This document shows, one piece after another, positions 6,216 to 21,962 of a stretch of 54,675 nucleotides of DNA. Made by a program: the position numbers and the translations under genes. The DNA comes from a virus: positions 1 through 54,675 of IMG/VR virus record IMGVR_UViG_3300030333_004255, one strand, 5' to 3'. Under the pieces are notes generated by a model. It saw nothing but the letters and a program-made list of their open reading frames with translations. It made no database searches and was not told where the DNA came from. How positions within the stretch are numbered: the stretch's first letter is position 1; each line of letters opens with the position of its first letter.

Positions 6216-6231
6216 ACAGGATGTGGGGGGT

Positions 6232-6305
6232 CAAGTAGCAAGTAGCAAGTAGCACTAGCGGCAAGTAGCAAGTAGCAAGTAGACCTAGCAGCAAGTAGCA
6301 AGTAG
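6232..6305. repeat. CAAGTAG tandem array, 30-bp super-repeat
   Basis: Eight copies of CAAGTAG occur in groups of three, three and two (starts 6232, 6239, 6246; 6262, 6269, 6276; 6292, 6299), separated by the 9-mers CACTAGCGG and ACCTAGCAG. Groups start every 30 bp, near three helical turns. The array ends about 50 bp upstream of the early promoter. Confidence 0.9.
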
Positions 6306-6355
6306 TAGGCGCTACTACCCACTAAGGAAAAGCGAAAGAAAAGTTAGCTATAGGC

Positions 6356-6384
6356 TTGACAGGACCTTCCACATGCTTCACAAT
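6356..6384 (+). promoter_or_regulatory. Main early promoter (consensus sigma70)
   Basis: TTGACA (6356-6361), a 17-base spacer and CACAAT (6379-6384). The match and spacing are near ideal, and the position ahead of the whole plus-strand block suggests the immediate-early promoter read by unmodified host RNA polymerase. Confidence 0.8.
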
Positions 6385-6456: not shown

Positions 6457-6525
6457 TGTCCAATGGTTGGACACTAACTTACTGTCCAAGGTTGGACACT
6501 AACAGTTACTGTCCAAGGTTGGACA
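6457..6525. promoter_or_regulatory. Three TGTCCA...TGGACA palindromes
   Basis: Sites at 6457-6473 (TGTCCAA-TGG-TTGGACA, one base longer than the rest), 6483-6498 and 6510-6525 (both TGTCCAAGGTTGGACA). This is the only triple cluster of the family and sits between the early promoter and the first early gene, consistent with a multi-site operator or leader RNA element. Confidence 0.85.
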
Positions 6526-6541
6526 GAAAGTGAAATCAGTC

Positions 6542-7483
6542 ATGGCAAAATCAGCTGACATGAAAAAGCAAGAAGCACACAAGGTTAACTCTACTAAGGC
6601 AGCCTATGCGACCCTAGCAACGCTCAACACGTTGTCCGATATTGCGACTCGGATTGCAGGTCAAGGTGTCGTTGTCCTACGCTCGCCAGCAAGTGGCAAG
6701 GTGCGAGGTGGCAAGCGTGAGACACCCGTAGACGTATTCGACGCGTCTCAATATGGGAAGTCTAAGGCTGCCAGTGCAGGCACTTACAAGGCTGGACATG
6801 CTCATATCTACATTAGCCAAGCGTGTACGCTGAAAGAGGTTCAAGAGTGCCTGGCCAAGGGGCTTTATACGCTCAAGTTCCACCAACCTATCAAAGGTGA
6901 CGCTAGCCTAGAACCGCGCAAGGCAGACCCATTCACGGGAAAAGACCTTACAGGCAAACCAGGTAAGGCTGAATGGAAGTGGGCACGCGCGCAGCTGGCC
7001 CCATTCTCGTCTCAGATTGCGAAGCTATACTGGAGTCCGCTAAAGGCTGTATCATCGGCCAAGCGGGACGCTACCAAGGCCAAGCAAGAAGCAGCCAAGC
7101 AAGAAGCTGAAAAGGGAATGAGCGAAGCTGAGAAGGCTCTTAGCGCTTTCCGCGAAGCTAACAAGCTACCTAAGGTAAGATGGACTCTAGACGGCGCTAA
7201 GATGGACAAGCTACCCTTGGACCAAGTGGAGCGAATCCAAGGTGCAATGACTAAGGCTATGGCCAAGCGGGTTGTCATCAACGCGGCCGACCTTACCAAG
7301 GCCAAGGCATACCGTGACGAAATCACGCCACTGGTAGACGCCGCGCTCAAGTCTCAACCTGCGACTGCAAGCACGGCGGAAAAGAGTCAAGCAGATACCA
7401 AGGCCAAGGCCAAGCGTGCGAACAAGGTCGCAGGTGTCAAGGCCACTCCTAGCCTAAGAGCGGAGTCAGCCAAGGCCAGCTAA
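6542..7483 (+). CDS. First early gene, basic Lys/Ala-rich protein, 313 aa
   Basis: Function not recognised. I chose ATG 6542, the first ATG after the operator triplet; an in-frame GTG at 6530 lies too close to it. Residues about 1-160 may be folded; from about 170 on the sequence is rich in Ala, Lys and Glu, with a C-terminal Lys/Ala tail reminiscent of histone H1-like tails. That composition and the first position after the strongest promoter suggest a nucleic-acid-binding host-takeover protein; this is inference. Confidence 0.8.
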   Translation: MAKSADMKKQEAHKVNSTKAAYATLATLNTLSDIATRIAGQGVVVLRSPASGKVRGGKRETPVDVFDASQYGKSKAASAGTYKAGHAHIYISQACTLKEVQECLAKGLYTLKFHQPIKGDASLEPRKADPFTGKDLTGKPGKAEWKWARAQLAPFSSQIAKLYWSPLKAVSSAKRDATKAKQEAAKQEAEKGMSEAEKALSAFREANKLPKVRWTLDGAKMDKLPLDQVERIQGAMTKAMAKRVVINAADLTKAKAYRDEITPLVDAALKSQPATASTAEKSQADTKAKAKRANKVAGVKATPSLRAESAKAS

Positions 7484-7545
7484 GCATTCATGCCCTAGCG
7501 CCTCTTAGAATGGATTCTAAGGGGCCCTAGCGGGATAAATGCTTA
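7481..7545 (+). other. 65-nt foldback after first early gene
   Basis: Outer arms TAAGCATT (7481-7488, including the stop codon) and AATGCTTA (7538-7545) are perfectly complementary, and an inner stem CTTAGAAT/ATTCTAAG lies at 7504-7521. There is no U tract. It may be an mRNA 3'-end stabiliser or processing site, immediately before the next palindrome. Confidence 0.6.
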
Positions 7546-7546
7546 G

Positions 7547-7562
7547 TGTCCAAGGTTGGACA
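7547..7562. promoter_or_regulatory. Palindrome TGTCCAAGGTTGGACA
   Basis: A member of the 13-copy family; a perfect 7+7 dyad ending 21 bp before the ATG of the 7584 gene and just upstream of its AGGAGA ribosome binding site. Confidence 0.85.
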
Positions 7563-7583
7563 TAAACACACAGGAGACACACA

Positions 7584-7991
7584 ATGCGGAAACACGAAAG
7601 ACTTAGAACACTAGCTGCGCGGCAACTAGACAAGATGACCAGGGAAGCGCAGCTAGACCTAGCACGTTGCACACAAGGGGCGCGAACTAACTACGAGGCT
7701 CGTCGAAAGCAAAACCAGGTGTTCCCGCTCCCAGAGCACCCTATAGGCTCTAACGATTTCAGTGGCTGGTTCCACGGGTCAGGCCAGTTCAAGGTATGGG
7801 GTGCGATGTCCTATCGGGCTAGGGTAGAACTGGCTAGGGTAGCCAAGCCACTAGCAGCCCCTGGGGCGCTGTACGAGAGTGGTATGGCTAACGAGCGGAC
7901 CAGCCCCTACGAGTCAGCGAAGCTAGACGACAATGGGTCCATTCCGAGCGAGTGCGCCTACCTGCTACGCGTCGCGGTTGGTATAGAGTAG
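7584..7991 (+). CDS. Unrecognised early protein, 135 aa
   Basis: No family recognised. The ATG has the recurrent start cassette AGGAGACACACAATG. The N-terminus is Arg-rich and basic (about 1-45), then a Gly/Trp-containing middle (GWFHGSGQFKVWG) and a neutral C-terminus. It is the last gene before the origin-like repeat region. A DNA-binding or replication-initiation role would fit its position but is not shown by any motif. Confidence 0.75.
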   Translation: MRKHERLRTLAARQLDKMTREAQLDLARCTQGARTNYEARRKQNQVFPLPEHPIGSNDFSGWFHGSGQFKVWGAMSYRARVELARVAKPLAAPGALYESGMANERTSPYESAKLDDNGSIPSECAYLLRVAVGIE

Positions 7992-8016
7992 AAAGTATCA
8001 CTACCCACTAGGTGCA

Positions 8017-8139
8017 CCACAAAAGTGGTGCATCGTTTGGACTGAAAATGACACAGTGCATAACCACAAAAGTGACTCACGCCACAAAAGTGACGCACCA
8101 CAAAAGTGGTGTCTCCAAATGGATACGCCACAAAAGTGG
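8017..8139. repeat. Five CCACAAAAGTG repeats (origin candidate, part 1)
   Basis: Exact copies start at 8017, 8064, 8082, 8098 and 8128, with a degenerate sixth near 8179. Three are extended to CCAC-AAAA-GTGG, a small dyad. Together with the adjacent GTTGCC array they form an iteron-like cluster in a region with no convincing gene. Confidence 0.85.
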
Positions 8140-8200
8140 TGTCTCCAATCGTTTACAAGATGTATCCAAGTGGAGACGCCGAAATAGTGGTGCCATACAT

Positions 8201-8320
8201 GTATGGCAACGTACGTTGCCATATGTTGCCATATGTTGCCATACGTTGCCCTATACGTATGGCAACGTATGTTGCCCTATGTTGCCCTATGTTGCCATAC
8301 GTTGCCATACGTTGCCATAC
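8201..8320. repeat. GTTGCC iteron array, 10-bp period (origin candidate, part 2)
   Basis: Nine direct units of GTTGCC[AC]TA[TC] start at 8215, 8225, 8235, 8245, 8271, 8281, 8291, 8301 and 8311. Two inverted units (GTATGGCAAC) lie at 8201-8210 and 8257-8266. The 10-bp spacing puts all sites on one face of the helix, as in replication initiator iterons. Open frames crossing it encode only translated repeat and are not credible genes. A GC-rich alternating stretch (8325-8358) follows. Confidence 0.88.
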
Positions 8321-8387
8321 GTCCTCGCGCGCATGTGGGCGCATGTGTGCGCGCACGACGTAATACAGCGCGAAAATTCTCGAATAC

Positions 8388-8468
8388 TTTTTTTTACGCG
8401 TCACGTGTAAGGGAATTTTTGAAAAAATATTTTTTTTTACGCGTCACGTGTAGAGGAATTTTTGAAAA
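8388..8468. repeat. AT-rich 38-bp direct repeat (possible unwinding element)
   Basis: Copies at 8388-8425 and 8431-8468 differ at two positions. Each has an 8-T run, ACGCGTCACGTGTA and GGAATTTTTGAAAA. An AT-rich repeated block next to iterons is the usual form of a DNA unwinding element. Confidence 0.8.
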
Positions 8469-8478
8469 CTTTTTTTAG

Positions 8479-8494
8479 TGTCCAAGTTTGGACA
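8479..8494. promoter_or_regulatory. Palindrome TGTCCAAGTTTGGACA
   Basis: A family member immediately after the AT-rich repeats and 22 bp before the ATG of a 22-codon reading frame. Confidence 0.82.
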
Positions 8495-8516
8495 CAAACA
8501 CCAGGAGATACACACA

Positions 8517-8585
8517 ATGTTAGTAGCAGCTTTCTTAACTGTAGGTTTTTTCGGGTTCGCGGGCTGGGATTTCGCACCCCGATGA
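8517..8585 (+). CDS. Candidate 22-aa hydrophobic peptide
   Basis: ATG 8517 to TGA 8585, reading MLVAAFLTVGFFGFAGWD and a few more residues: a single hydrophobic segment. It has both family signals, the palindrome and the cassette AGGAGATACACACAATG, which argues that it is translated despite its size. The function is unknown. Alternatively it is a decayed gene start beside the origin. Confidence 0.45.
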   Translation: MLVAAFLTVGFFGFAGWDFAPR

Positions 8586-8592
8586 ACCAGGG

Positions 8593-8836
8593 ATTGCAGT
8601 GCAATGCATGCATGGTTGCATGCAGCGTATACCCTATAGGGTATATGCGCTGCACTGCAAGGCGTTGCACACGCTACGCAACTTGCAACTATACGGAATC
8701 ATTAAAGATTCCCGTTTGAGTTGCATAGCGTTGCACTATAATTGCATGATATTTCGTAATTTTCATGCAACGTCCAACTATTTGTAATCATTAGGCTTTT
8801 CAGAGTGGGTTGCACGCCGCTTTTTTTATGCAACTC
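8593..8836. repeat. TGCAA/TTGCA-rich block with 18-bp palindrome
   Basis: About eleven TTGCA or TGCAA elements, often GTTGCA[TC], occur on both strands without a gene. At 8622-8653, GCAGCG and CGCTGC flank the perfect palindrome TATACCCTATAGGGTATA (8628-8645), a strong potential cruciform. GAGTTGCAT (about 8718) is mirrored by ATGCAACTC (about 8828). This is a second candidate set of replication or partition sites; no coding capacity is seen. Confidence 0.7.
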
Positions 8837-8854
8837 ACTATAGACAACAGTTAC

Positions 8855-8870
8855 TGTCCATACTTGGACA
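8855..8870. promoter_or_regulatory. Palindrome TGTCCATACTTGGACA
   Basis: A family member with a 6+6 core (TGTCCA/TGGACA) and a mismatch at the seventh pair, 15 bp upstream of the 8886 start. Confidence 0.8.
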
Positions 8871-8885
8871 CAAAAGGAGTTCGTG

Positions 8886-9257
8886 ATGCACAACGCTCAC
8901 ACGCTACAAATTATGAACCGTCCATCGCCTAGGGCCCAAGGGCTCCTGTTTGAAACGGAACTTCACACTTTCCACCTCGTTCGTAAGGACCGGAAGGGAA
9001 AGCGATTTGAATTCCGCACGTACCAGATTGGTGGCGAAGCGGGCATGGCCCGAGTCAAGAGTGCTGACGTGGATTACACTACCTCTGGCTTCGATGGTGA
9101 GCTGGAAGCCCTAGAGGCTTTCCGTCTCCACCTGGTGAAGGCAGGTATCGTCACGAAGGTCTCGAAATTTCCGCCAAGATTTTTTCCAGGTAGAGGCCAG
9201 CGAGTCTGTCGGTTCAACCCCCACACCGACATGTTCTACGCTGTGAAGGTAAAGTAG
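8886..9257 (+). CDS. Unrecognised early protein, 123 aa
   Basis: No family recognised. ATG 8886 follows AAGGAG with 6 bases spacing and the palindrome at 8855; an in-frame GTG one codon earlier is less likely. A basic, mixed alpha/beta-looking protein with KDRKGKRFEFRTYQI in the middle and FPPRFFPGRGQRVCRF near the C-terminus. The stop TAG overlaps the GTG start of the next small frame. Confidence 0.75.
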   Translation: MHNAHTLQIMNRPSPRAQGLLFETELHTFHLVRKDRKGKRFEFRTYQIGGEAGMARVKSADVDYTTSGFDGELEALEAFRLHLVKAGIVTKVSKFPPRFFPGRGQRVCRFNPHTDMFYAVKVK

Positions 9258-9364
9258 TGGTACTATTTGCAAAGCTAATAGCGATACTATATCTTTTCAA
9301 ACTGATTAGCCTGGGTTGTGACTGGGCGGAGGATTTCAAAGATGAATTACCAAAGACACGCTGA
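9257..9364 (+). CDS. Candidate 35-aa lipoprotein or membrane peptide
   Basis: GTG 9257 shares its first base with the preceding stop. The product has a hydrophobic N-terminus (about 2-20), a lipobox-like SLGC ending at Cys21, then an acidic tail (DWAEDFKDE). It overlaps the next gene by 23 bp. The ribosome site (GAAGG) is modest. Plausible as a small phage envelope peptide; low certainty. Confidence 0.4.
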   Translation: MVLFAKLIAILYLFKLISLGCDWAEDFKDELPKTR

Positions 9365-9707
9365 AGTTAGCCAAGCCATGGTTAATAAGGGCTACCCTCA
9401 ATCAATCAAAAATCTCTCGTTGGATGAGCTGGACAGAATCCAGCAGATGGAGTGCGAGCACATCATGCATCCAGCTATTTACCCTCTCGGAGAGGTGGAT
9501 GATTTGAATGAGTGTACAATTGATGAGCTAGAGGCACGCATCGACAGCTGCCTAGAGTTGGCATCGACCTACGAGCGTCGCTCGAATAACGACTTCCGTC
9601 AGGCTTGGGAGCGTATGAAGTACAGCTCGTGGGCAGAGCGAGTGATGGAAGTGGCGGACGAGCTTGCAGACTTGATCGAGTACAGAAACAACCCACCTAC
9701 ATGGTGA
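9342..9707 (+). CDS. Unrecognised acidic helical protein, 121 aa
   Basis: ATG 9342 is preferred over an in-frame GTG at 9318 because GGAGG precedes it at 9 bases. The sequence is acidic and almost wholly helical (SLDELDRIQQM, TIDELEARIDSCL, ERVMEVADELADLIEY). No motif recognised. It may bind a host protein; this is only inference from composition and early position. Confidence 0.75.
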   Translation: MNYQRHAEVSQAMVNKGYPQSIKNLSLDELDRIQQMECEHIMHPAIYPLGEVDDLNECTIDELEARIDSCLELASTYERRSNNDFRQAWERMKYSSWAERVMEVADELADLIEYRNNPPTW

Positions 9708-9713
9708 ACTTAA

Positions 9714-9729
9714 TGTCCAAAGTTGGACA
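9714..9729. promoter_or_regulatory. Palindrome TGTCCAAAGTTGGACA
   Basis: A perfect 7+7 family member 6 bp after the stop of the 9342 gene, followed within 10 bp by a TAGGAG ribosome site that now leads into no intact gene (see 9741). Confidence 0.82.
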
Positions 9730-9740
9730 CAAACTGTAGG

Positions 9741-9890
9741 AGTTGTGGTCAGACCAAGAACCAACAGGCTGAATTACTGCGGAGTACTGGTAAGTCGTTC
9801 AAACAGAAGAGGCAACGGGCAGGCTGCGTGCCACCTACTGACCTCAAGCAGCTGACTTTTACCATGCCTGCACAGCTGAATAAACGGTGA
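9741..9890 (+). pseudogene. Possible broken small gene, ~49 codons, no usable start
   Basis: Downstream of a palindrome and TAGGAG, one frame stays open to TGA 9888-9890 and has protein-like composition (NQQAELLRSTGKSFKQ..., then DLKQLTFTMPAQLNKR). It has no ATG, GTG or TTG near the ribosome site; the GTG at 9745 is in another frame that runs to a different stop. A small indel at the start would explain this. Alternatively the stretch is noncoding. Confidence 0.35.
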
Positions 9891-9917
9891 CGTGCTGGCC
9901 ACAACTTCTACATTTAA

Positions 9918-9933
9918 TGTCCAAACTTGGACA
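9918..9933. promoter_or_regulatory. Palindrome TGTCCAAACTTGGACA
   Basis: A perfect 7+7 family member, 31 bp before the 9965 start codon. Confidence 0.83.
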
Positions 9934-9964
9934 CAAACTGCGAGGCATACTCGCGTAAGGAAAC

Positions 9965-10648
9965 ATGAAAATGTTTGAAGCTCTTTTATATTTTCCGATG
10001 ACTGAAGACGAACGTGCTGATGGTACTTCGATACCTGGCACAGGGGCATGTAAGCTGCTCAAGAAATTTGACAGCATCCACAAGGTACTTGATTGGCTGA
10101 ATACGGTGCGGGCCCAGAATACCAAGTACATGGATACTGGTGAGGGGTTCTGTTATACCTTCCGTCTCTCTGGCTTCAAGTTCCTGGAGCTAAAAACACA
10201 TCAGTATCAAACAGAGTACTCGTCGCGCAGTGGTACGAAGTTAGATGAACTCTCATCGATGGTTTTCGATGTTAATGAATTCATCTCTCGCAATGAGGAT
10301 GATGTGGATGAGTACCTCTTCAAGTGTGTGAAGAAGCACATTATTCAGAAGTATGTCAAGTTCGTGGGGAAGCCCAACCAGTTGGGTGAAGAACTTGGGT
10401 ATGGTACCCGTGTGGTCATCAAGTCCATGGGCGAGGACTTCGCCCTGGTCCACATGGTCCCTGACGGGACGGGGCAGATAGACTTCCACTTCCAGAAGCT
10501 GGACACGTGCCAGCATGAGTGGGTGGAGTCTATGGGGTGGGCATCATACCCGGCTCCCATGGAGACCAAGCCTTCAGTTCGTACCGGTAAGTACACTTGC
10601 CGGAATTGTGGGGAAGAGCGTGTGCATCTTCAGGACACCCCCTTTTAA
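9965..10648 (+). CDS. Unrecognised early protein with C-terminal zinc motif, 227 aa
   Basis: No family recognised. ATG 9965 follows TAAGGA. The C-terminal 50 residues contain CQHEW and later YTCRNCGEERVHL, a probable Cys/His zinc site. The middle is acidic (SRNEDDVDEYLF). It is the largest gene in this stretch of operator-led single genes and is flanked by palindromes on both sides, so it is probably its own regulatory unit. Confidence 0.78.
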   Translation: MKMFEALLYFPMTEDERADGTSIPGTGACKLLKKFDSIHKVLDWLNTVRAQNTKYMDTGEGFCYTFRLSGFKFLELKTHQYQTEYSSRSGTKLDELSSMVFDVNEFISRNEDDVDEYLFKCVKKHIIQKYVKFVGKPNQLGEELGYGTRVVIKSMGEDFALVHMVPDGTGQIDFHFQKLDTCQHEWVESMGWASYPAPMETKPSVRTGKYTCRNCGEERVHLQDTPF

Positions 10649-10654
10649 TTTTAG

Positions 10655-10670
10655 TGTCCAAGTTTGGACA
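10655..10670. promoter_or_regulatory. Palindrome TGTCCAAGTTTGGACA
   Basis: A perfect 7+7 member, 6 bp after the stop of the previous gene and 28 bp before the 10699 start. Confidence 0.83.
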
Positions 10671-10698
10671 GTAAGTATCCGCGAACCAGGAGAAACCA

Positions 10699-10869
10699 AT
10701 GGTAGATGATCCAACAAAACGTCCATGTCCAAAGTGTAAGTCAGACAAGGTAAGGACCTACACACACCCAAGAGGCTTATCGTTCGGCTGCTACGTGCAG
10801 TGCGACAGGTGCGTAACGGTTGTTCGAGACTACACCATAGATAACTATACATCGAAACGAAAAGGTTGA
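10699..10869 (+). CDS. Lar-like zinc-ribbon protein, 56 aa
   Basis: ATG 10699 with CAGGAGAAACCA before it. The layout is CPKCKSD near the N-terminus and CDRC about 30 residues on, a two-knuckle zinc ribbon like Lar-family restriction-alleviation proteins (CPFCG...C..C). Size and placement among small early genes fit that family, but Lar-type ribbons are easily confused with other zinc ribbons. If right, it would protect phage DNA from type I restriction. Confidence 0.55.
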   Translation: MVDDPTKRPCPKCKSDKVRTYTHPRGLSFGCYVQCDRCVTVVRDYTIDNYTSKRKG

Positions 10870-10879
10870 GGGTTACCCA

Positions 10880-11143
10880 ATGACAATCTCTCATATGAAA
10901 GCCCTGGCTGTACTCATCATAGAGTACTCAGGTTCATCAACTCCTCATGACTTAGCAGTTGTGGCACATGCCAAAGCCCTCGTGATGGGGTTGGAGAAAC
11001 TTGAAAAGGAACTCCTGAAAATGCAGGAGGACCTTGGGGATGTATGGGTGACAGATACACGTGACCAGAGAATGTGGTCATCGATAGACGACAGGTTTGA
11101 AACAATTTTACAGGGAGAGACTAATGATCTGCCACGTAGTTAG
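10880..11143 (+). CDS. Unrecognised small helical protein, 87 aa
   Basis: Starts 10 bp after the zinc-ribbon stop. A hydrophobic N-terminal helix (MKALAVLIIEY) precedes an amphipathic helix rich in Leu, Lys and Glu (about 35-60). Its end overlaps the next start by 20 bp, so the two are translationally coupled. No function assigned. Confidence 0.7.
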   Translation: MTISHMKALAVLIIEYSGSSTPHDLAVVAHAKALVMGLEKLEKELLKMQEDLGDVWVTDTRDQRMWSSIDDRFETILQGETNDLPRS

Positions 11144-11618
11144 GACAGAAGGGGGTGAGACCACCACCAAAACTTTTCAAAATCTTCTCGCCGCAGTGAG
11201 CTACATCGATGAGATGGAGGAGAAGATTGAGGGGTGGTGGAATGAACTAACCCCACGTAACTTTCAGTGTGAACTGGTATTCGAGGGAGGGTTCTCCATA
11301 CAGGAGACAGTGGTGAATGACGCTGGCACATTCACAGACCCGCAGAAAAAATTCGATGAGTGGGACCTAAGCGCACCACGAGGAAAATCATCTGGTTACA
11401 CAGCTGGGCCAAAGGGTGAGTTCATGCATGACTTTCAAACTTGGCTCATTGATGGACTGTGCTTTGAGTACGGTTTGGATGATGGGGAAGTGTACAGAAT
11501 TATACAAATGTACGTAGACGGAAAGCCCATTGTAACTGTGAGCATTGGACATGGTGGGTATACAGCCCACCGTTACAAGTGGAACGATAGTACCTTTCAT
11601 TATGAGGGGGTGTCATGA
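11124..11618 (+). CDS. Unrecognised protein, 164 aa
   Basis: ATG 11124 is chosen because AGGGAGAG lies 4 bases upstream; an in-frame TTG at 11097 is inside the previous gene. Acidic, Trp-rich protein (WWNEL, DEWDL, DFQTWL) with a beta-rich C-terminus ending GYTAHRYKWNDSTFHY. No family recognised. It overlaps the next gene by 4 bp (ATGA). Confidence 0.75.
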   Translation: MICHVVRTEGGETTTKTFQNLLAAVSYIDEMEEKIEGWWNELTPRNFQCELVFEGGFSIQETVVNDAGTFTDPQKKFDEWDLSAPRGKSSGYTAGPKGEFMHDFQTWLIDGLCFEYGLDDGEVYRIIQMYVDGKPIVTVSIGHGGYTAHRYKWNDSTFHYEGVS

Positions 11619-12058
11619 CACACGAAGAAGAAATCCAAAAGCTAAAGACTACCATCTCCAAGCAACGCAAGAGTAGGAAGGAGGTAAACAAAGAGCTGGC
11701 TAATGAGAAGCTACGCTACTCAAAACTAGAGGAGAAGTTTAACAAGCTGGCCCAAAAACCTAAGACTCCACTGAGAAAACAACTTGAGAACGTCAAGAGA
11801 AACTATTCTCAGGCGTTGTCTTCCGAGCGTGAAATAAAAAGAGAGTACGATAACTTCGTCAAGGTAAATCAAAAACGTGTGGATCACTGGCAAAAGACAG
11901 CGGAGGGTTTCGCAAAGCAGGTTGAATCACTCAAGGAAGAACTTCGAAAGTCAAAACAAAATAACCGTGAAACCATGGTCGAGATTCTAGAGGCACAGCT
12001 ACCGGCAGGGTTTCACAACATCCTTAACAGGTTACTTAACCCAGAGGATTACCAATGA
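11615..12058 (+). CDS. Coiled-coil protein, 147 aa
   Basis: Highly charged, Lys/Glu-rich and helical throughout, with heptad patterns at about 1-45 and 55-115. ATGA overlaps on both sides couple it to its neighbours. The next two genes encode membrane peptides, so the three may form a membrane-attached assembly; this is inference. Confidence 0.75.
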   Translation: MTHEEEIQKLKTTISKQRKSRKEVNKELANEKLRYSKLEEKFNKLAQKPKTPLRKQLENVKRNYSQALSSEREIKREYDNFVKVNQKRVDHWQKTAEGFAKQVESLKEELRKSKQNNRETMVEILEAQLPAGFHNILNRLLNPEDYQ

Positions 12059-12255
12059 AAAAGCAGACACTACTTAGACAGCTAGCATCAACCCACAATC
12101 AACTGGCCGAGGCTTTGGATAGGGCAGAGGCAGCAGAGCGTAGGGCACAGCAGCCCGTAGAGGAGGAGCCAGAAGTTTCTTACAACTTCTTTGGGATTGT
12201 AATTGCCCTAGGTGTTGTAGGTGCAGGGGTGTGGGGGATGTTGACCTATGTCTAA
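12055..12255 (+). CDS. Small membrane protein, 66 aa
   Basis: An N-terminal Ala/Glu/Arg helix (about 1-38), then one transmembrane segment at about 44-64 (FFGIVIALGVVGAGVWGML). It overlaps the coiled-coil gene by 4 bp and the next gene by 8 bp. Unknown function. Confidence 0.7.
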   Translation: MKKQTLLRQLASTHNQLAEALDRAEAAERRAQQPVEEEPEVSYNFFGIVIALGVVGAGVWGMLTYV

Positions 12256-12430
12256 TGCATTTAACATAGCTCTCGTATGGAGCTGCATCATCCTAATCAT
12301 AAAAGGTATCTGGCACATGAAGGTAGGGGGAGAAGCAAACTATGAAGCGATGAAGTGGTTGTGGATTACAGCAGCGTTCTCGCTGACAGTCTTCCACGTG
12401 GTTGTAACAAATAAGAATAAGAGAACTTAG
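12248..12430 (+). CDS. Small membrane protein, 60 aa
   Basis: Two predicted transmembrane segments, about 5-22 (IALVWSCIILIIKGIW) and 36-53 (WLWITAAFSLTVFHVVV), with a basic C-terminus. It overlaps the previous gene. It could alter the host membrane; no holin-specific signature and far from the lysis region. Confidence 0.68.
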   Translation: MSNAFNIALVWSCIILIIKGIWHMKVGGEANYEAMKWLWITAAFSLTVFHVVVTNKNKRT

Positions 12431-12459
12431 AACAGGGTAAAACACACAGGAGAACACAC

Positions 12460-12645
12460 ATGAGTTTTTTCAAGAAGAGTAATGGACAGTCAACTACCCC
12501 ACGCCAGGACATGGCGCGTCACATGGTGGAGTTCGTAGAGAATGGGGGAAGCCAGGAAGTGGCTGATGAGTTTGAAGAGGCTTCAGCTATTGGTCACCGA
12601 CCACAAGGGTGTACACGTACACCAACAAAAGAATATAGAGAGTAG
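12460..12645 (+). CDS. Small hydrophilic protein, 61 aa
   Basis: ATG 12460 follows the cassette CAGGAGAACACACATG. An acidic segment (VENGGSQEVADEFEEASAIG) is followed by a basic tail (PQGCTRTPTKEYRE). Not recognised. The start cassette is the best support. Confidence 0.65.
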   Translation: MSFFKKSNGQSTTPRQDMARHMVEFVENGGSQEVADEFEEASAIGHRPQGCTRTPTKEYRE

Positions 12646-12705
12646 CTTTTTTTTCAGTAACCCTATAGACTTTAGTTAATAGATAACATAATCACCGGGG
12701 GAATA

Positions 12706-12807
12706 ATGATAGAGGAATATTTTAAACAGGAGTTTTTAACCCCTTTGCCAGCCTTACTTGGTTGGTTGGGATTGAAGTTAACCGGATTGATTTTTACAGG
12801 AGAGTAG
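12706..12807 (+). CDS. Candidate 33-aa peptide
   Basis: ATG 12706 with CCGGGGGA upstream; stop TAG 12805-12807 is one base before the next ATG, a coupling arrangement. The peptide is partly hydrophobic (LTPLPALLGWLGLKLTGLIF). Too short to assign. Confidence 0.45.
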   Translation: MIEEYFKQEFLTPLPALLGWLGLKLTGLIFTGE

Positions 12808-12808
12808 A

Positions 12809-12979
12809 ATGCGTAGAGGAAAAGCAGCACTTGAAGAACGTAGAAACACAGCAGCTGAGTTGAAAGCTCAGCGTGCAGCACGGTCACCTGAACAACAGCT
12901 CGAAGTAATTAAGAGCCGTCCTGGTCAGAGTGCGCGTGAGACTACACGTCTTCAGGCACAGATTAAAGCGGCTAAGTAA
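12809..12979 (+). CDS. Small basic helical protein, 56 aa
   Basis: ATG 12809 with ACAGGAGAG before it, stop TAA 12977-12979. Rich in Arg, Ala, Gln and Lys (LEERRNTAAELKAQRAARS), a likely single helix or coiled coil that could bind nucleic acid. The terminator at 12992 ends this transcription unit. Confidence 0.6.
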   Translation: MRRGKAALEERRNTAAELKAQRAARSPEQQLEVIKSRPGQSARETTRLQAQIKAAK

Positions 12980-12991
12980 AACACCACAGCC

Positions 12992-13020
12992 TGGGCATGC
13001 TTTGAACTGCCCATCTTTTT
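12992..13020 (+). terminator. Rho-independent terminator
   Basis: TGGGCA (12992-12997) pairs with TGCCCA (13008-13013) over a 10-base loop, followed by TCTTTTT (13014-13020). It closes the operon 10880-12979 and stands 3 bp before the next palindrome. Confidence 0.75.
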
Positions 13021-13022
13021 AA

Positions 13023-13038
13023 TGTCCAAGTTTGGACA
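13023..13038. promoter_or_regulatory. Palindrome TGTCCAAGTTTGGACA
   Basis: A perfect 7+7 member between a terminator and the 13059 start. Since the terminator should stop upstream transcripts, this site marks a place where either a promoter or antitermination is needed. Confidence 0.82.
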
Positions 13039-13058
13039 CTAACTTATCGGAGACACAC

Positions 13059-13646
13059 ATGACAGTAGTAGCAGCAGGACCAATTATCGAAGCAACCAAG
13101 AAGACCAAGGGTCGAGACGGTAGCTCTCACTTCCTAACTCTCATCGGCGAGCGTCCCAATGGTAGCCAATGGGGTGGCGAGATGACCGAGGAGATCCTAG
13201 AGTTGTTCATCGCCACGGGTACCGTGGTTCCTCACGAGGAGCTGAGTCCCAACCAGGTAACCAAGGGGTGTGTCTACGTGAAGGTGGCTCAGGGTTTGGT
13301 GAGTAAACTTTTTCCCAACGCAACCTTCGACGTTCAGACTTCAAACAACCTCCTTCGATCTCAAATCCTAGTGGTGAGAAAGTCTATCCACGAGGGGCAG
13401 TTCGATGAAGACGGTAATCCTTTCAACGGGGTTGAGAATAAGTTCGAGCTTCAGACGAAGGTGCCTTTCGATGGGCAGGCCACCGATGAAGCTTGGGTAA
13501 TCCTCGGGCCTGGGGCTGACGGTCTTGTGATTTACACCACCTACCCTGGCCCGCTCCTAGGGGACATGCCAGAAAATTGGGATGGTAACGCGGATAAGCT
13601 GGACTTGTACCGGGATGCGTACCCGGTCAAGCGTTACCAGGGTTAA
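13059..13646 (+). CDS. Unrecognised protein, 195 aa
   Basis: ATG 13059 carries the start cassette CGGAGACACACATG; an in-frame start at 13032 would fall inside the palindrome and is rejected. Predicted beta-rich in the N-terminal half (HFLTLIGERPNGSQWGGEM), then a Gly/Pro/Asp-rich region (VILGPGADGLVIYTTYPGPL). No family recognised. It is a single-gene unit preceded by a terminator and followed by a tRNA-like element. Confidence 0.75.
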   Translation: MTVVAAGPIIEATKKTKGRDGSSHFLTLIGERPNGSQWGGEMTEEILELFIATGTVVPHEELSPNQVTKGCVYVKVAQGLVSKLFPNATFDVQTSNNLLRSQILVVRKSIHEGQFDEDGNPFNGVENKFELQTKVPFDGQATDEAWVILGPGADGLVIYTTYPGPLLGDMPENWDGNADKLDLYRDAYPVKRYQG

Positions 13647-13660
13647 CAAACAGGGTACCC

Positions 13661-13741
13661 CTGCCCGAGGTGTTGCCTGGTGGCATACCCCAATGGAGCG
13701 CGCACTCCGGGGAGGCGTTGGTTCAAATCCAACCGGGCGGG
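13661..13741 (+). tRNA. tRNA-like element (non-canonical, identity unclear)
   Basis: A seven-pair acceptor stem CTGCCCG (13661-13667) / CGGGCGG (13734-13740), discriminator G, and a perfect T arm GTTGG-TTCAAAT-CCAAC (13717-13733). The D arm is GTGT/ATAC. The anticodon hairpin TGGAG/CTCCG (13694-13709) has a 6-base loop CGCGCA with no U33, and five unpaired bases precede it; U8 is also missing. No CCA is encoded. It may be a degenerate tRNA, a tRNA mimic or a captured attachment site; the anticodon would read GCG if functional. Confidence 0.45.
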
Positions 13742-13753
13742 GGTTCAGTTTTC

Positions 13754-13769
13754 TGTCCAACTTTGGACA
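13754..13769. promoter_or_regulatory. Palindrome TGTCCAACTTTGGACA
   Basis: A perfect 7+7 member between the tRNA-like element and the 13788 start. Confidence 0.82.
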
Positions 13770-13787
13770 CTAACGAAAGGTTAGAAG

Positions 13788-14234
13788 ATGTGGAAAATAA
13801 ATTTCCCAGAGGGAAGTAAAGTACGAGTGTACCACGACAACGAGAAGGCTTGCTCAGGTTACTCTGATGAGTTTTTAATTAAGGGTCCGCGACCAAGTGA
13901 GATCGTGAGCATCTACCCTGAAGATGGGTTTGAGTCTGAACTGCTGATGGATTTGGTTGGTGGTTCCACCGTTCAGATGAATATGCGGTGGGGTGAAGGC
14001 CCGCGCTACGATCCTGACGGTAGCCTCGTAGATGAGGAACACCTCATCAGTTGTACAATTGAAGAGTACTGCGAAGCATTCTTCAAACGTGAGGATTCAG
14101 AAGAACTATTCAATGGTTTCTGGAGCGGGCAGTACTATCACTGCTTCCACATCGATACCAGCTACTGCAAGATTGCAAGCGGTACTTCAGGTGCTGGGGG
14201 TTTTGTGCTTCGAAATCCAAAGGATAAGTCATGA
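13788..14234 (+). CDS. Unrecognised acidic protein, 148 aa
   Basis: ATG 13788 with AAAGGTTAGAAG upstream. Acidic and Tyr/Phe-rich, beta-like N-terminus (MWKINFPEGSKVRVYHD), C-terminal Gly-rich stretch (ASGTSGAGGFVLRN). It begins a tightly packed run to 15323 with 4-bp or 10-bp overlaps. Unknown function. Confidence 0.72.
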   Translation: MWKINFPEGSKVRVYHDNEKACSGYSDEFLIKGPRPSEIVSIYPEDGFESELLMDLVGGSTVQMNMRWGEGPRYDPDGSLVDEEHLISCTIEEYCEAFFKREDSEELFNGFWSGQYYHCFHIDTSYCKIASGTSGAGGFVLRNPKDKS

Positions 14235-14635
14235 CTAACAAAGAAGACATAGTGATGACCTTTGGTGGGGACACCAGGCTAGCTTGTAAGAACACCCTTC
14301 CTACACCTAAACAAATCGCAAAGTCCGTATGCTTCCGTAAAGAAATTGATTGGAAGATTTGGGCCAACGACACCTGTGTACGAGAACGAGATTTTGAAAC
14401 AGAAGTATTTGATAGTGAGCGAGAACAACTGCATCACGCTGCGTCAATCTGTCGTGACTTGTACAAGATTCAGAAGGGGCGCAAGTCAGTCACACTACAC
14501 GCATGGAGGAGAGGAACGAAAACAGGTTTGTTTATCCTCCGCTTCCATGGTCGTGAAGACTGCGCCATGAATCTAAACAACTGGAAAATCTATGAGCTGT
14601 GGTGTGAACGCTGCGACAAGGAGAGATGGGTGTGA
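14231..14635 (+). CDS. Unrecognised protein with C-terminal CxxC, 134 aa
   Basis: Overlaps the previous gene by 4 bp. Basic centre (KGRKSVTLHAWRRGTKTG) and a terminal WCERCDKERW, half of a possible zinc site; Cys residues near positions 19 and 34 might complete it. Not recognised. Confidence 0.7.
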   Translation: MTNKEDIVMTFGGDTRLACKNTLPTPKQIAKSVCFRKEIDWKIWANDTCVRERDFETEVFDSEREQLHHAASICRDLYKIQKGRKSVTLHAWRRGTKTGLFILRFHGREDCAMNLNNWKIYELWCERCDKERWV

Positions 14636-15027
14636 GAGAACTAAAAGTATTTAGGGTTGACCACCTTGGCTACACCTGGTGCCAGAGTTGTATGTTTCAA
14701 GGCAACCCTGGGAAGTGTGACGAGACGTTTGCGTCAGTGCCTGACGAGCACCTTGGTTATGAAGACAAGTGCGATGGTTGCGAATCACCTACGGAGGATT
14801 GGCCTGGTATGCCTTGGCATACAAACGGACGCCTACCTGTATGGCCTGAAGGTTGTATCAACAAGTTCATTGAGCAGTGGGGTGAACCTCTTCGAAGGCA
14901 AGGCTTATCGGAAAAGGAAATATATAAACACTGGTGGGAGAAACACTATGGAATACCACATCAGGAGATTGAACGAGAGTTGAAACTACAACGCGAGGCT
15001 TGGCCCATAGCTAAGGAGAAGTCATGA
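14626..15027 (+). CDS. Unrecognised Cys-rich protein, 133 aa
   Basis: Overlaps the previous gene by 10 bp. The N-terminal half has WCQSC, then GKCDE, then KCDGCES, a likely treble-clef or ribbon-like zinc site at about 19-52. The C-terminal half is helical and charged (LRRQGLSEKEIYKHWW). No family recognised. Confidence 0.7.
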   Translation: MGVRELKVFRVDHLGYTWCQSCMFQGNPGKCDETFASVPDEHLGYEDKCDGCESPTEDWPGMPWHTNGRLPVWPEGCINKFIEQWGEPLRRQGLSEKEIYKHWWEKHYGIPHQEIERELKLQREAWPIAKEKS

Positions 15028-15323
15028 GCAGAACATTAGTTGAATCCTTTTCAAATGGATTTCTGAAACCATCAGAATGTTTGGATGACTTCCTTGCTGA
15101 TGAGTGGGGAGTCACTGATGAATACGGTTGCTGGTACATAGCTCAGTGGGAGGGTGACATGGATGACTCACCCCATGCAGCTGACTTACAATACGATGGC
15201 AAACGTTACATCTTCAACACGTATTATTCTGGGCCAGGTGTAGTGGTAAGGGGCTGCACGTATGGTGACAGAGAACTAGCAATCAAAGCTTTCAAAAAGT
15301 TAATGTCCAATGTTGGACAGTAA
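15024..15323 (+). CDS. Unrecognised acidic protein, 99 aa
   Basis: Starts at an ATGA overlap. Acidic and aromatic-rich (DEYGCWYIAQWEGDMDD). Its last five codons (SNVGQ) are encoded by the palindrome at 15304-15319, so this operator copy is embedded in coding sequence. Confidence 0.7.
   Translation: MSRTLVESFSNGFLKPSECLDDFLADEWGVTDEYGCWYIAQWEGDMDDSPHAADLQYDGKRYIFNTYYSGPGVVVRGCTYGDRELAIKAFKKLMSNVGQ
15304..15319. promoter_or_regulatory. Palindrome TGTCCAATGTTGGACA
   Basis: A perfect 7+7 member inside the 3' end of the previous gene and 14 bp before the 15334 start. Retention of the motif inside a reading frame argues that it is selected. Confidence 0.85.
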
Positions 15324-15333
15324 GGAGAGACAC

Positions 15334-15582
15334 ATGAGTAACCCATTCCCAGACACACAGTATGACGCACTACTAAAGAAAGTTATGAACGAGTTTGCAC
15401 ATATGAAAAACCATCTAACCTATATGGAAAAACAGTGTGATGAGTTCCGTATGTACATCGAGGAACTCGAAGATGAGCTGATTCGGTTTCAAGATCCTGA
15501 TGCTACAGCTGAGGACTACCAGGTTCCTACTCAATATGGACAGCCAGGTGCAGGGAAGACTTACGCTGTAGAGGGAGAGTAA
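15334..15582 (+). CDS. Small helical protein, 82 aa
   Basis: ATG 15334 has AAGGAGAGACACATG; an in-frame start at 15310 lies within the palindrome. N-terminal amphipathic helix (about 8-55) with coiled-coil character, then a Gln/Pro/Gly tail (VPTQYGQPGAGKTY); the GAGKT string is not in a P-loop context. Unknown. Confidence 0.7.
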   Translation: MSNPFPDTQYDALLKKVMNEFAHMKNHLTYMEKQCDEFRMYIEELEDELIRFQDPDATAEDYQVPTQYGQPGAGKTYAVEGE

Positions 15583-15584
15583 AG

Positions 15585-16121
15585 ATGGGAGTGTACACAC
15601 ATTTATTAAACAAGTCCAAACCATGGACGGTGCCAGGTTTAGGCAAGGTATTCAATTTGAAGTACTCACATCGCAGTTCGGATGAGAACATCAACAAGTG
15701 GCACAGCGAGGACAAGGAGGGGAAACGAATCACTTCTCTTGCACTCGCACGTAATCAAAGGTCTGTAGATAACTGGTTCCCAACTGAGTACGTTTATTTT
15801 GCTTACGATTTAGATGACCAGGAAGTGGGCTCCATCTTCAAGGTTTTCCGGGGGAGGACAGACAACAGGGACCTACGAGTCTGGTACGACTGCAATGACG
15901 ACCCTGGTGAATGGGTGGGCACTGTAGAAGTACTCAACCTAAAGCCTCGAAAGAAACTTCGTTACCTACCTGTACCTCCTAGACCAGTGGATGAAACGAA
16001 AGAGACTTACATCTGCGAAGAATGCAATGAGGAAAAACCCTGGTCTAACGGAAGCGATTCATCTCCAGAGTGTGATGACTGTTGGGCCAAGAACCAGGAG
16101 AACGAGGGTGAAAACCTATAA
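15585..16121 (+). CDS. Unrecognised protein with C-terminal zinc ribbon, 178 aa
   Basis: Begins 2 bp after the previous stop, with GGGAGAGTAAAG before the ATG. The C-terminus shows ICEECNEEKPW and later CDDCW, a four-Cys ribbon at about 141-168. The N-terminal 130 residues look beta-rich. It may bind nucleic acid; family not recognised. Confidence 0.72.
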   Translation: MGVYTHLLNKSKPWTVPGLGKVFNLKYSHRSSDENINKWHSEDKEGKRITSLALARNQRSVDNWFPTEYVYFAYDLDDQEVGSIFKVFRGRTDNRDLRVWYDCNDDPGEWVGTVEVLNLKPRKKLRYLPVPPRPVDETKETYICEECNEEKPWSNGSDSSPECDDCWAKNQENEGENL

Positions 16122-16380
16122 ATATAAAGTCAAACTCTTCATTGACGACTCAACCAACAAAGGCGTCCGTCGTTTGATGTACGGTGTTTATGACTACTGT
16201 GAGCAGCACGAGTATTTCAGAGAGGCAGAGTTCGAGAAGGTGTGGACTGCTATCATGCCCATAAGGCTAGAAGCTTTCAACTCTCGTATACTTGGAAATA
16301 TGGATTCGCAAGTTGTGCCTGAAGTCGTCAGCGTTACTAAAAGCTACTGGAAAAACTACCGTAAAAGATACGGACTATAG
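16108..16380 (+). CDS. Unrecognised small basic protein, 90 aa
   Basis: GTG 16108 is chosen: CAGGAG lies 7-8 bases upstream and the frame overlaps the previous gene by only 14 bp; the frame is open further back but without a good start. Tyr/Lys-rich (TYKYKVKLFIDD, YWKNYRKRYGL). Unknown. Confidence 0.6.
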   Translation: MKTYKYKVKLFIDDSTNKGVRRLMYGVYDYCEQHEYFREAEFEKVWTAIMPIRLEAFNSRILGNMDSQVVPEVVSVTKSYWKNYRKRYGL

Positions 16381-16390
16381 GAGAACACAC

Positions 16391-16447
16391 ATGGGTAAAG
16401 CAGAAGACGTTATCAGTGAAGAGAAGAGGAGACTTCGTGATGGATGA
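16391..16447 (+). CDS. Candidate 18-aa leader peptide
   Basis: ATG 16391 has the exact cassette TAGGAGAACACACATG, and the frame ends with TGA inside ATGGATGA, overlapping the next gene start at 16440. The peptide MGKAEDVISEEKRRLRDG is charged. It may be a coupled leader controlling the next gene or the remnant of a truncated gene that kept its start cassette. Confidence 0.45.
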   Translation: MGKAEDVISEEKRRLRDG

Positions 16448-16838
16448 TTTTGTACAGAGAGAAGTAGAAAAAGATTTGGCTATGTTGAGAGGCTTGGACC
16501 GAAGGAGTCTTGCAGAAAGGAAGGAATCACGTGACGACTATGCAAAGATTCTCAAGGACCCGGAAGAGTTAGACATTGTTCTAAGGGACTTCTTCTCCTT
16601 CTCTTATGGGGAGGGTGCTAGATTTTTATTAGAGCGGGTTCTAAAAAATCCCCACAAACGTACAAACAAAGTGGCTCAAATCAGCGCAATGATAGCAGGG
16701 TTTGAATGTAAATGCCCTAATCGGTATGCGAAGGATGCCTACGTTCTCCAGCTAACACAACCAGAAAGAGACGCAGCTAACGAGCTATTCAAGAGATACA
16801 TCAAGGAATGGGAGGAAGAACAAAATGTGGACGCATAG
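16440..16838 (+). CDS. Unrecognised helical protein, 132 aa
   Basis: ATG 16440 is preferred over an in-frame GTG at 16416: GAGGAG lies 8 bases upstream and the leader stop overlaps it. Helical and charged, with a CKC pair (FECKCPNRY) near 93. It overlaps the next gene by 14 bp. Unknown function. Confidence 0.68.
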   Translation: MDDFVQREVEKDLAMLRGLDRRSLAERKESRDDYAKILKDPEELDIVLRDFFSFSYGEGARFLLERVLKNPHKRTNKVAQISAMIAGFECKCPNRYAKDAYVLQLTQPERDAANELFKRYIKEWEEEQNVDA

Positions 16839-17088
16839 AACTTATGATGGGCACACCATCTGCGCTTACTCATCAGGATACTTAGATTGGGGGTTGAAGA
16901 TCACCGACGACTTAGGCTTTGTTGTGTTTAACAACCCACACTACCTGTCTAATGACTCTTGGGGTTTCAATGATCCAGAGGATGAGGATTCAGATGAGAG
17001 AATATCTTGGTCCGACCAAGAGTGGAAGGACGCGCTAAGGGAAAAAGCGGATGAGTTTATAGATTTGGTTTACTACCCAGAGGATTAA
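16825..17088 (+). CDS. Unrecognised acidic protein, 87 aa
   Basis: Overlaps the previous gene by 14 bp; GGAGGAAGAACAAA precedes the ATG. Trp/Tyr/Asp-rich, strongly acidic centre (NDPEDEDSDERISW). Small acidic early proteins of this type can mimic DNA, but no such family is recognisable here. Confidence 0.65.
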   Translation: MWTHRTYDGHTICAYSSGYLDWGLKITDDLGFVVFNNPHYLSNDSWGFNDPEDEDSDERISWSDQEWKDALREKADEFIDLVYYPED

Positions 17089-17092
17089 AATA

Positions 17093-17230
17093 ATGAAACT
17101 TCAAAAAGAATTTCTAACCCAGGCTGAGGCTTGGGCATGGGTACAAAAACAGAAGCAGCCCAAACGCGGGGACTACTTCATCGAGAAAGATATCATGTCA
17201 GGCAAGTATGTTGTCTGGCTCATGGACTAG
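17093..17230 (+). CDS. Small protein, 45 aa
   Basis: ATG 17093 lies 4 bp after the previous stop, with the ribosome site (CAGAGG) inside that gene's end. Sequence begins MKLQKEFLTQAEAWAWVQKQ and ends YVVWLMD; Lys/Gln/Trp-rich. Coupled to its neighbours by spacing. Unknown. Confidence 0.6.
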   Translation: MKLQKEFLTQAEAWAWVQKQKQPKRGDYFIEKDIMSGKYVVWLMD

Positions 17231-17245
17231 ATCAGGGAGAAAAAC

Positions 17246-17452
17246 ATGACATCCATTAACATCCACCGTGTAGAGAAGCTAAAGATTGAAGATCTTAAAA
17301 TTGAATCTGAGGCTTACGACCAGGGTTACTTCTACGTGAAGAGGTTAGTTGTTCACTCTGAAGATGGTGATTTCCAAATTGACTTATTGTCTACCGAACA
17401 CTGCGCTCACTCTTATGAAAACAAAACAAACAGTTACTATGGAGAGGATTGA
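17246..17452 (+). CDS. Small acidic protein, 68 aa
   Basis: ATG 17246 follows CAGGGAGAAAAAC. Beta-like, acidic protein (MTSINIHRVEKLKIEDLKI). The 38-bp gap after it holds a small hairpin CCTCAT/ATGAGG. Unknown. Confidence 0.65.
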   Translation: MTSINIHRVEKLKIEDLKIESEAYDQGYFYVKRLVVHSEDGDFQIDLLSTEHCAHSYENKTNSYYGED

Positions 17453-17490
17453 TTTTATTTTCCTCCCCTCATAGACATGAGGTATAAGCT

Positions 17491-17937
17491 ATGATAAACA
17501 TACAGCTGGAGATGCAGACACTTCGGTCTGCGTTAACAAATCTTCTCCAATTAGGAGTAAGCCGTAATTATTTACGGCAGGAAGTGAAGCAAACTATGGA
17601 CAACTGGCAACGCAAACTAACCACACGAAAGCCTGTACAGACAGGACTACCAGGGCCAGGGGACTTCGACCCTCCTGAGAGTAACCACGTAGACTTTGAT
17701 GGTATCCTCATGGAGGAGGACATCAGAGATTATTTGGAAAACCCACAGGTTCTGGGTGACTTGCTAGCCTTTGAGTCAGGCCCTGGCTCAGCCACTGAGA
17801 TGATGACCAAATATCTTTGGTCTCATTACTGCGGTGTATGTGATGAAACTACAGCGCATTACGAGAAGAAGATGATAGAGTTGTTACGCAATGTCTTTGA
17901 AAAAGAAATTGAAGAATTAGTAAATGGCAAATTGTAG
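17491..17937 (+). CDS. Unrecognised protein, 148 aa
   Basis: Helical N-terminus (about 1-48), a Pro/Gly/Asp linker (TGLPGPGDFDPPESNHVDFD) and a helical C-terminus with a CGVC pair near 113. Unknown; Cys pair and His residues might bind a metal. Confidence 0.68.
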   Translation: MINIQLEMQTLRSALTNLLQLGVSRNYLRQEVKQTMDNWQRKLTTRKPVQTGLPGPGDFDPPESNHVDFDGILMEEDIRDYLENPQVLGDLLAFESGPGSATEMMTKYLWSHYCGVCDETTAHYEKKMIELLRNVFEKEIEELVNGKL

Positions 17938-17946
17938 GAGGCAGTA

Positions 17947-18252
17947 ATGGCGAGCATGAAAGTAGAGCAAACGTCGCTTGTTTTCCAAGAGCTAGGGGAG
18001 AACAGGAGTCAGGCAGTGAGGGCTGCCCACCTGGCTGAACAATGTTGGGCACTATGCATCCGAATGGATGATGTAAATCTTAGAAGTCATCTGCTTAACA
18101 TGTCAGTGCGTGAGCTTGCAGCTATTTACGGGTCAGCTGCTGGGGAGGGAACGGCGTTTGATTTCCGAACAGACAGCGAGAAAGAAGAGGGTTTACCCGT
18201 GACCAGTACCAAAATTGCTAACTTTGTAAGGGAGCAGGGATGGAGGAAGTGA
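17947..18252 (+). CDS. Unrecognised helical protein, 101 aa
   Basis: ATG 17947 follows TAGGAGGCAGTA, the best ribosome site in this stretch. Mostly helical, with no membrane segment. It overlaps the next gene by 13 bp. Unknown. Confidence 0.68.
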   Translation: MASMKVEQTSLVFQELGENRSQAVRAAHLAEQCWALCIRMDDVNLRSHLLNMSVRELAAIYGSAAGEGTAFDFRTDSEKEEGLPVTSTKIANFVREQGWRK

Positions 18253-18473
18253 AACCCCTAAGAGCGGGAATGCTCATAATCTGGGCTTCAGTTTCACTTT
18301 TCTTATCAGTGTTCTTTGGATTCTGTGTTGGGTTCTACTTTGATTACCAACATATATTCAGCTGGAGCAACTACCTTTTATTTACAGGTAGTGTTTTAGG
18401 TTTAGTTATTCTGATACTTCTACAAACAGCTTTATTGTATAAGCTAGAAAAACATATAGAAGATTCAGATTAG
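18240..18473 (+). CDS. Small membrane protein, 77 aa
   Basis: Two transmembrane helices, about 10-33 and 44-67, with short charged ends (MEEVKP and KLEKHIEDSD). Ribosome site GGAGCAGGG. It ends the run 15334-18473, and a new promoter follows. Unknown. Confidence 0.7.
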   Translation: MEEVKPLRAGMLIIWASVSLFLSVFFGFCVGFYFDYQHIFSWSNYLLFTGSVLGLVILILLQTALLYKLEKHIEDSD

Positions 18474-18475
18474 TA

Positions 18476-18505
18476 TTGACGTAGTTAGTGTAAAGCTAAT
18501 AGATA
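18476..18505 (+). promoter_or_regulatory. Sigma70-like promoter for DUF932 gene
   Basis: TTGACG (18476-18481), 18 bases, TAGATA (18500-18505), in an AT-rich gap ahead of the last palindrome and the 18583 gene. The spacing is one over the optimum. Confidence 0.55.
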
Positions 18506-18547
18506 AATAATGTGGTTTTATTTACAACAAATGCTAGAAGCATTTAC

Positions 18548-18563
18548 TGTCCAAACATGGACA
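18548..18563. promoter_or_regulatory. Palindrome TGTCCAAACATGGACA (last copy)
   Basis: The last family member; 6+6 core with a mismatch at the seventh pair. It lies about 35 bp downstream of the predicted transcription start and 19 bp before the gene start. No copy occurs between here and the end of the window. Confidence 0.82.
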
Positions 18564-20342: not shown

Positions 20343-20373
20343 TCGTGAGTTCACACGATTAAGGAAAGGACAC

Positions 20374-21931: not shown

Positions 21932-21962
21932 TTGACTAGATGTATAGAGAAAAACTATACAT
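21932..21962 (+). promoter_or_regulatory. Promoter with overlapping dyad, upstream of HTH regulator
   Basis: TTGACT (21932-21937), 18 bases, TATACA (21956-21961). A perfect dyad ATGTATAG-N7-CTATACAT (21940-21947, 21955-21962) covers the spacer and the -10 box, the classical arrangement for repression by steric block. Confidence 0.6.

Follow-up and report, generated by a model that had tools for sequence, protein, structure and literature searches.

Thirteen dispersed palindromes in a tailed phage early operon: probable operators for a phage-encoded early protein

The IMG/VR record IMGVR_UViG_3300030333_004255 is a tailed phage sequence of 54,675 nt, analyzed here over its whole length (the window). 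Its early operon contains thirteen copies of the palindrome TGTCCA-N4-TGGACA, between 6.46 and 18.56 kb. These are probably dispersed DNA operators for one phage-encoded, dimeric, very-early protein, most likely the product of the first early gene; a probability of roughly 60% is assigned to this reading. The phage has no close cultivated relative, and its terminase and polymerase matches are all below 60% identity. Late and packaging genes run leftward and early genes rightward.

Twelve of the copies are exact. The remaining one, at 6457–6473, has the arms TGTCCAA/TTGGACA with a 3-base centre (TGTCCAA-TGG-TTGGACA), i.e. a 5-base centre in the 6+6 form. No copy with one mismatch is present in the window, thus the family of palindromes is discrete. 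When two mismatches are allowed there is a single extra match, at 32511, which is unrelated (shuffled sequences give a mean of 2.85 and at most 8), and no spacing of the 6+6 dyad was found in the window besides N4 and that of the 6457 copy. The 7+7 dyad with a 2-base centre is displayed by ten fixed-spacing sites, at positions 6483–6498, 6510–6525, 7547–7562, 8479–8494, 9714–9729, 9918–9933, 10655–10670, 13023–13038, 13754–13769 and 15304–15319. Sites 8855–8870 and 18548–18563 retain the 6+6 core alone. Copies and arms are as given in a preliminary description made from the sequence alone, which had counted eleven 7+7 dyads among thirteen copies.

Alignment of the flanks of the 13 copies shows that the true unit is 24 bp, TTA-N-TGTCCAA-NN-TTGGACA-N-WAA. 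TT at -4/-3 and AA at +3/+4 are found in 13 of 13 copies and A at -2 in 12 of 13, and inside these conserved flanks rungs -1 and +1 vary freely between copies. A search with the 24-mer pattern recovers all 12 fixed-spacing sites, as 24 strand matches where 0.2 are expected, e.g. at 6479–6502 and 6506–6529 for the second and third. Sites 7547, 8479, 9714, 9918, 10655, 13023 and 13754 match both the exact motif and the 24-mer.

The sites are confined to 6.4–18.6 kb of the 54.7 kb, and the late leftward block contains none, as first described. A start codon typically lies ~14–31 nt downstream of the site, in general agreement with the earlier account; the exception is 9714, with no obvious ATG. 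The distance from dyad to ribosome site is 0–20 nt, and the two often abut, in the window and in its sister phage G021. There is no room for a -10 element and transcript start between site and ribosome site, and the earlier view that promoters would need a greater distance from the start codons holds. Site 15304 had been placed inside coding sequence. It does overlap the open reading frame 15024–15323 (...MSNVGQ*), however the overlap is limited to the C-terminal codons, thus it is a gene-boundary site and not a mid-gene one.

The first three sites are spaced 26–27 bp and stand directly before gene 6542–7483. A sigma70-like early promoter candidate on the plus strand, TTGACA-17-CACAAT (positions 6356–6384, 10/12 matches), is ~70–130 bp upstream of them; the regional total of such hits is not above that of shuffled sequences. 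CAAGTAG-like repeated units are found at 6230–6320, upstream of this candidate. Of the sites, a search for intrinsic terminators (a T run after a hairpin) lists only 15304, on the minus strand. A non-coding block at 8010–8320 has other short repeats, of the CCACAAAAGTG and TTGCCATACGT types.

The palindrome differs in closely related phages. The G021 terminase is 100% identical to that of the window, late genes mostly 96–100%, DNA polymerase 98% and helicase 94%. A sigma70 region 4-like helix-turn-helix (HTH) protein that adjoins the terminase (5478–5930; Pfam E 2e-6) is also 100% identical in G021. The early block of G021 is mostly unrelated to that of the window and has its own palindromes, TAATCGTAA-N4-TTACGATTA (nine), TAATCGCAA-N4-TTGCGATTA (four) and one hybrid. 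Written out, the window palindrome is TTANTGTCCAANNTTGGACANWAA and its G021 counterpart TAATCGTAAN4TTACGATTA. Many G021 sites are directly behind a stop codon, whose TAA they share, and end in the ribosome site.

In one homologous leader the code, i.e. the palindrome sequence, is swapped in place: site 8855 of the window corresponds to TAATCGTAACTTTTTGCGATTA in G021. Site 8479 precedes a small open reading frame, and the equivalent place in G021 (8585) has a TAATCGCAA-type site before a small open reading frame. At 20340–20361 the window displays a single G021-like dyad, TAATCGTG-N6-CACGATTA, where G021 has TAATCGTAA-N4-TTACGATTA. A conserved TGCA-rich leader with the dyad TATACCCT-AT-AGGGTATA (window 8590–8830) is common to G021 and a further phage, L407.

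Contigs with 76–77% identical terminase have AATGGCYAA-type sites, and one with 99% identity has G021-type sites. Eight contigs with a 65–72% identical DUF932 protein, G021 among them, all lack the window motif. Upstream of the DUF932 gene the window has an extra cassette of ~23 nt, located between conserved sequence and the ribosome site; it carries site 18548 and is not found in these eight relatives. Absence of the motif from relatives had been named beforehand as a reason to give up the element, and literally the motif is absent. However, at equivalent places the relatives have another palindrome instead, which strengthens the element and does not remove it. The palindrome set changes as a unit; the code is therefore phage-specific and needs a phage-specific reader. 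Compared by eye, with positions numbered outward from the dyad axis, the window, AATGGC and G021 types appear to be one evolving operator, in which the outer TTAAT-like part is alike and the positions between vary.

The window palindrome is also found in HMO-2011-type ocean phages, which are unrelated to the window phage. In an IMG/VR scan for TGTCCAANNTTGGACA, 19 of 119 loci were multi-copy, against 0 of 120 for a control palindrome; single-copy matches are near chance level, and multi-copy contigs alone were used. The motif scan of the genome collection gave mostly single chance copies and no clear host regulon. A dispersed palindrome of some kind is found in about 2% of phage stretches, thus it may in part be coincidence that one word recurs in several lineages. 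The HMO-2011-type phages (e.g. CRP-1, CRP-345) are the largest group and have a common first early protein, gp01. All 80 gp01 loci examined contain GTCC(A/G)A-NN-T(T/C)GGAC sites, 398 in total, and the code is uniform within each phage save for two loci, which have a single deviating site each. Written out, the CCAA-code site is CGTCCAATGTTGGACA; the alternative is the CCGA version. Sites within genes occupy different reading frames in different genes, thus the constraint acts on the nucleic acid, and their flanks are opposite to the intergenic ones.

In cultured phages, gp01 and the sites are found together in three of three cases (CRP-1, CRP-345 and HMO-2011). In HMO-2011 gp01 is diverged (E 1.4e-12) and the code is a separate one, AGTCCG-N4-CGGACT. 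Both are absent from the first 20 kb of six of six others, i.e. CRP-603, CRP-2, CRP-207, CRP-738, CRP-3 and HTVC033P. Two papers on HMO-2011-type phages were found to mention neither palindromes nor inverted repeats, and searching the literature for the motif halves brought up nothing of relevance.

Some further loci were noted. Upstream of gp01, L433, L441 and L472 contain a non-coding block that is conserved, CTCGTGAGTTTAGCGCACGAAC...GCGCAGAGGATCAC, as well as a long hairpin; there is no Rfam match, and this is possibly a new structured RNA. The L017 phage has three copies of a dispersed palindrome of the same design, AGTCTAA-NN-TTAGACT. The GC-rich phage of L252 (1367–2047; G001) has 29 TGTCCAA-type sites. 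The linker VSKVGQSE in its first early protein is encoded by an in-gene site, and outside the linker the protein is not detectably related to gp01.

The code covaries with residues of gp01. The CCAA to CCGA switch needs six changes on a tree that leaves out the relevant gp01 segment. Residues 101, 112 and 119 are usually I, T and R, and in all six CCGA clades they are M, S and N/S/K/A, respectively. Residue 131 also departs in the six clades but is encoded by the in-gene site itself. In a randomisation confined to conserved columns, which was significant, six unswitched proteins were drawn at random, and 2 of 3529 such sets gave any column of this kind. L417 (CCAA) and L418 (CCGA) are 90% identical and both have M101 and S112; they differ at position 119 (R vs N), which points to residue 119. 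Residues 112, 116, 119 and 120 are within a predicted helix (111–122), with a spacing as on one face. Horizontal exchange of the gp01 segment could mean fewer independent events, yet segment and code would still be tied.

A comparable hint is displayed by relatives of the window phage. L407 and the L408 group have first early proteins with a homologous N-terminal part, and they differ in code. L407 and G021 have a common code as well as a common C-terminal stretch (E 2e-5). Because N-terminal homologues differ in code and those with a common C-terminal stretch agree, specificity in these proteins may lie in the C-terminal part.

Some features would suit a spreading repeat, i.e. a cassette, selfish or prone to recombination, that was copied into gene boundaries and regulates nothing: the site before the DUF932 gene resembles a clean ~23-nt insertion, and sites within one phage are near-identical. 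Such an origin is highly improbable given that some rungs are free between copies while others are invariant, that the code changes in concert with gp01 residues, and that presence or absence of sites matches that of gp01.

The candidate reader in the window is chosen by position. Gene 6542–7483 (plus strand) opens the early operon, immediately after the triple site, and encodes an orphan protein of 313 aa. It is inferred to read the palindrome, i.e. to do the same job as the unrelated gp01, which would bind its palindromes directly as DNA. No gp01 homologue was found in the window by hidden Markov model or profile comparison. A similarity of the 6542–7483 protein to the L410 first protein (Smith-Waterman z 6.9) was not upheld by composition-adjusted BLASTP (E 6.5).

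The preliminary description had proposed the YdaS/Cro-like HTH protein encoded at 22052–22285 as reader. This is unlikely, because the protein is conserved in G021 (~77% identity) and the G021 palindrome is very different. Even the recognition helix is near-identical in the two phages (VKQPSVNSWK in the window, VKQPSVNNWK in G021). Just upstream of the gene, at 21939–21963, is a perfect 9-bp dyad, GATGTATAG-N7-CTATACATC, which is probably the operator of this gene itself.

Several results weigh against the proposed reader and its mode of binding. The 6542–7483 protein has no relatives in IMG/VR, its similarity to gp01 is not significant (E 0.46), and its single-sequence AlphaFold model (pLDDT 42) is uninformative and was not used. 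The gp01 protein matches no solved fold, and for this reason its DNA binding is deduced from the covariation and helix geometry. When the tree is restricted to strongly supported branches, four independent pairs are left and the median sign-test p is 0.125–0.25, with the direction alike in nearly all pairings. A first randomisation, which took columns differing in five of six contrasts regardless of conservation, was not significant. Finally, repressor operators are seldom near-perfect dyads, which would also suit RNA hairpins.

A hairpin within the polycistronic early mRNA, to which a phage RNA-binding protein or nuclease would bind and so control translation or decay of the gene that follows, is an unlikely alternative, although the position of the sites 0–30 nt before ribosome sites is suitable. 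Each site is predicted to fold into 6–9 bp with a 4-nt loop, at about -7 to -11 kcal/mol. The arms are nearly always complementary, and one G021 hybrid site would retain a U-G pair. However, rungs -1 and +1 are free in spite of conserved flanks, the inner A/T pair is mostly conserved despite falling in the predicted loop, sites occur inside genes and in both flank orientations, and the arms show no copy-to-copy covariation within a phage. No known RNA family was found by Rfam in the window or in three roseophage loci. The symmetry, the free rungs within conserved flanks and the two flank orientations thus favor a dimer on DNA. Of the two possibilities raised in the preliminary description, the dispersed operator regulon is supported and the hairpin is the less likely.

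As operators, the sites may act as roadblocks. The very early protein, once made, would bind to its own leader as well as to gene boundaries across the operon, impede elongation by RNA polymerase and so damp early transcription. A roadblock suits the sites better than control of initiation, since they abut ribosome sites and are downstream of the candidate promoter. Should the phage be temperate, the protein would also confer superinfection immunity, with phage-specific codes.

In lambdoid heteroimmunity, close relatives have different operators, swapped control regions and repressor/operator pairs. The lambdoid operators are grouped at two promoters, whereas those of the window are dispersed over 12 kb of gene boundaries, and no CI-like repressor was identified in the window system.

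Cluster A stoperators (L5 group) are likewise many, phage-specific and often intergenic; their motif varies with the phage's own DNA-binding protein and their action is roadblock-like (PMC6550527, PMC9283540). They are asymmetric 13-mers, oriented with transcription and bound by a monomeric immunity repressor (PMC6550527, PMC9283540), whereas the window has symmetric 24-mers and the product of the first early gene as candidate reader. The window has many copies in short intergenic regions, and these are perfect or near-perfect dyads, not asymmetric 13-bp sites. The gp01 covariation supports a phage-encoded reader in other phages.

Cluster K SAS/ESAS repeats also lie just upstream of non-structural gene starts, and the inverted-repeat consensus varies between subclusters (PMC3203893). 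The likeness to ESAS suggested earlier stands for architecture and not for sequence: ESAS has 17-bp imperfect arms with a variable spacer (PMC3203893), and the 13-bp SAS GGGATAGGAGCCC is absent from the start codons of the window, with matches at chance level.

Cluster O mycobacteriophages (Corndog group) have 17-bp repeats, TGTTCGG-NNN-CCGAACA, in more than 30 copies throughout the genome, for which the available sections of PMC4351075 propose binding of a dimeric protein. Like the window sites they are dispersed near-invariant 7+7 dyads, many intergenic and some in genes. They differ in their 3-bp centre and genome-wide distribution, whereas the window sites are early-only with a code that varies between close relatives. 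In the window the Cluster O 17-mer has one match with two mismatches, i.e. chance level. Those sections report neither a reader nor a code change, and their authors judged a role in transcription initiation unlikely. The last point, with the 16–24 bp dyads and their many copies per genome, would fit non-transcriptional DNA sites, i.e. parS-like or nucleoid sites for partition, condensation, protection or replication. This is improbable, more so than the RNA hairpin, as the sites are confined to the early transcription unit, chiefly to gene boundaries, and the proteins scanned showed no ParA or CTPase domain. Stoperators and Cluster O repeats are the closest known kinds: the window system would work like the former and looks like the latter, and it lacks defining features of both and of SAS/ESAS.

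More generally, and at somewhat less than even odds, several unrelated lineages may keep their early operons under private, fast-changing palindrome codes, each read by a fast-evolving first early protein that has no known DNA-binding fold; in the ocean phages one helix would set the code. Dispersed phage palindromes have been reported before as repeats of unknown function, as in the sections of PMC4351075 on Cluster O. Here the code can be read from natural variation, which also points to a named candidate reader and to residues that may set its specificity, both among cultured roseophages and in a new lineage, and this makes the question testable. It also suggests that co-occurring marine phages may be kept apart by private operator codes.

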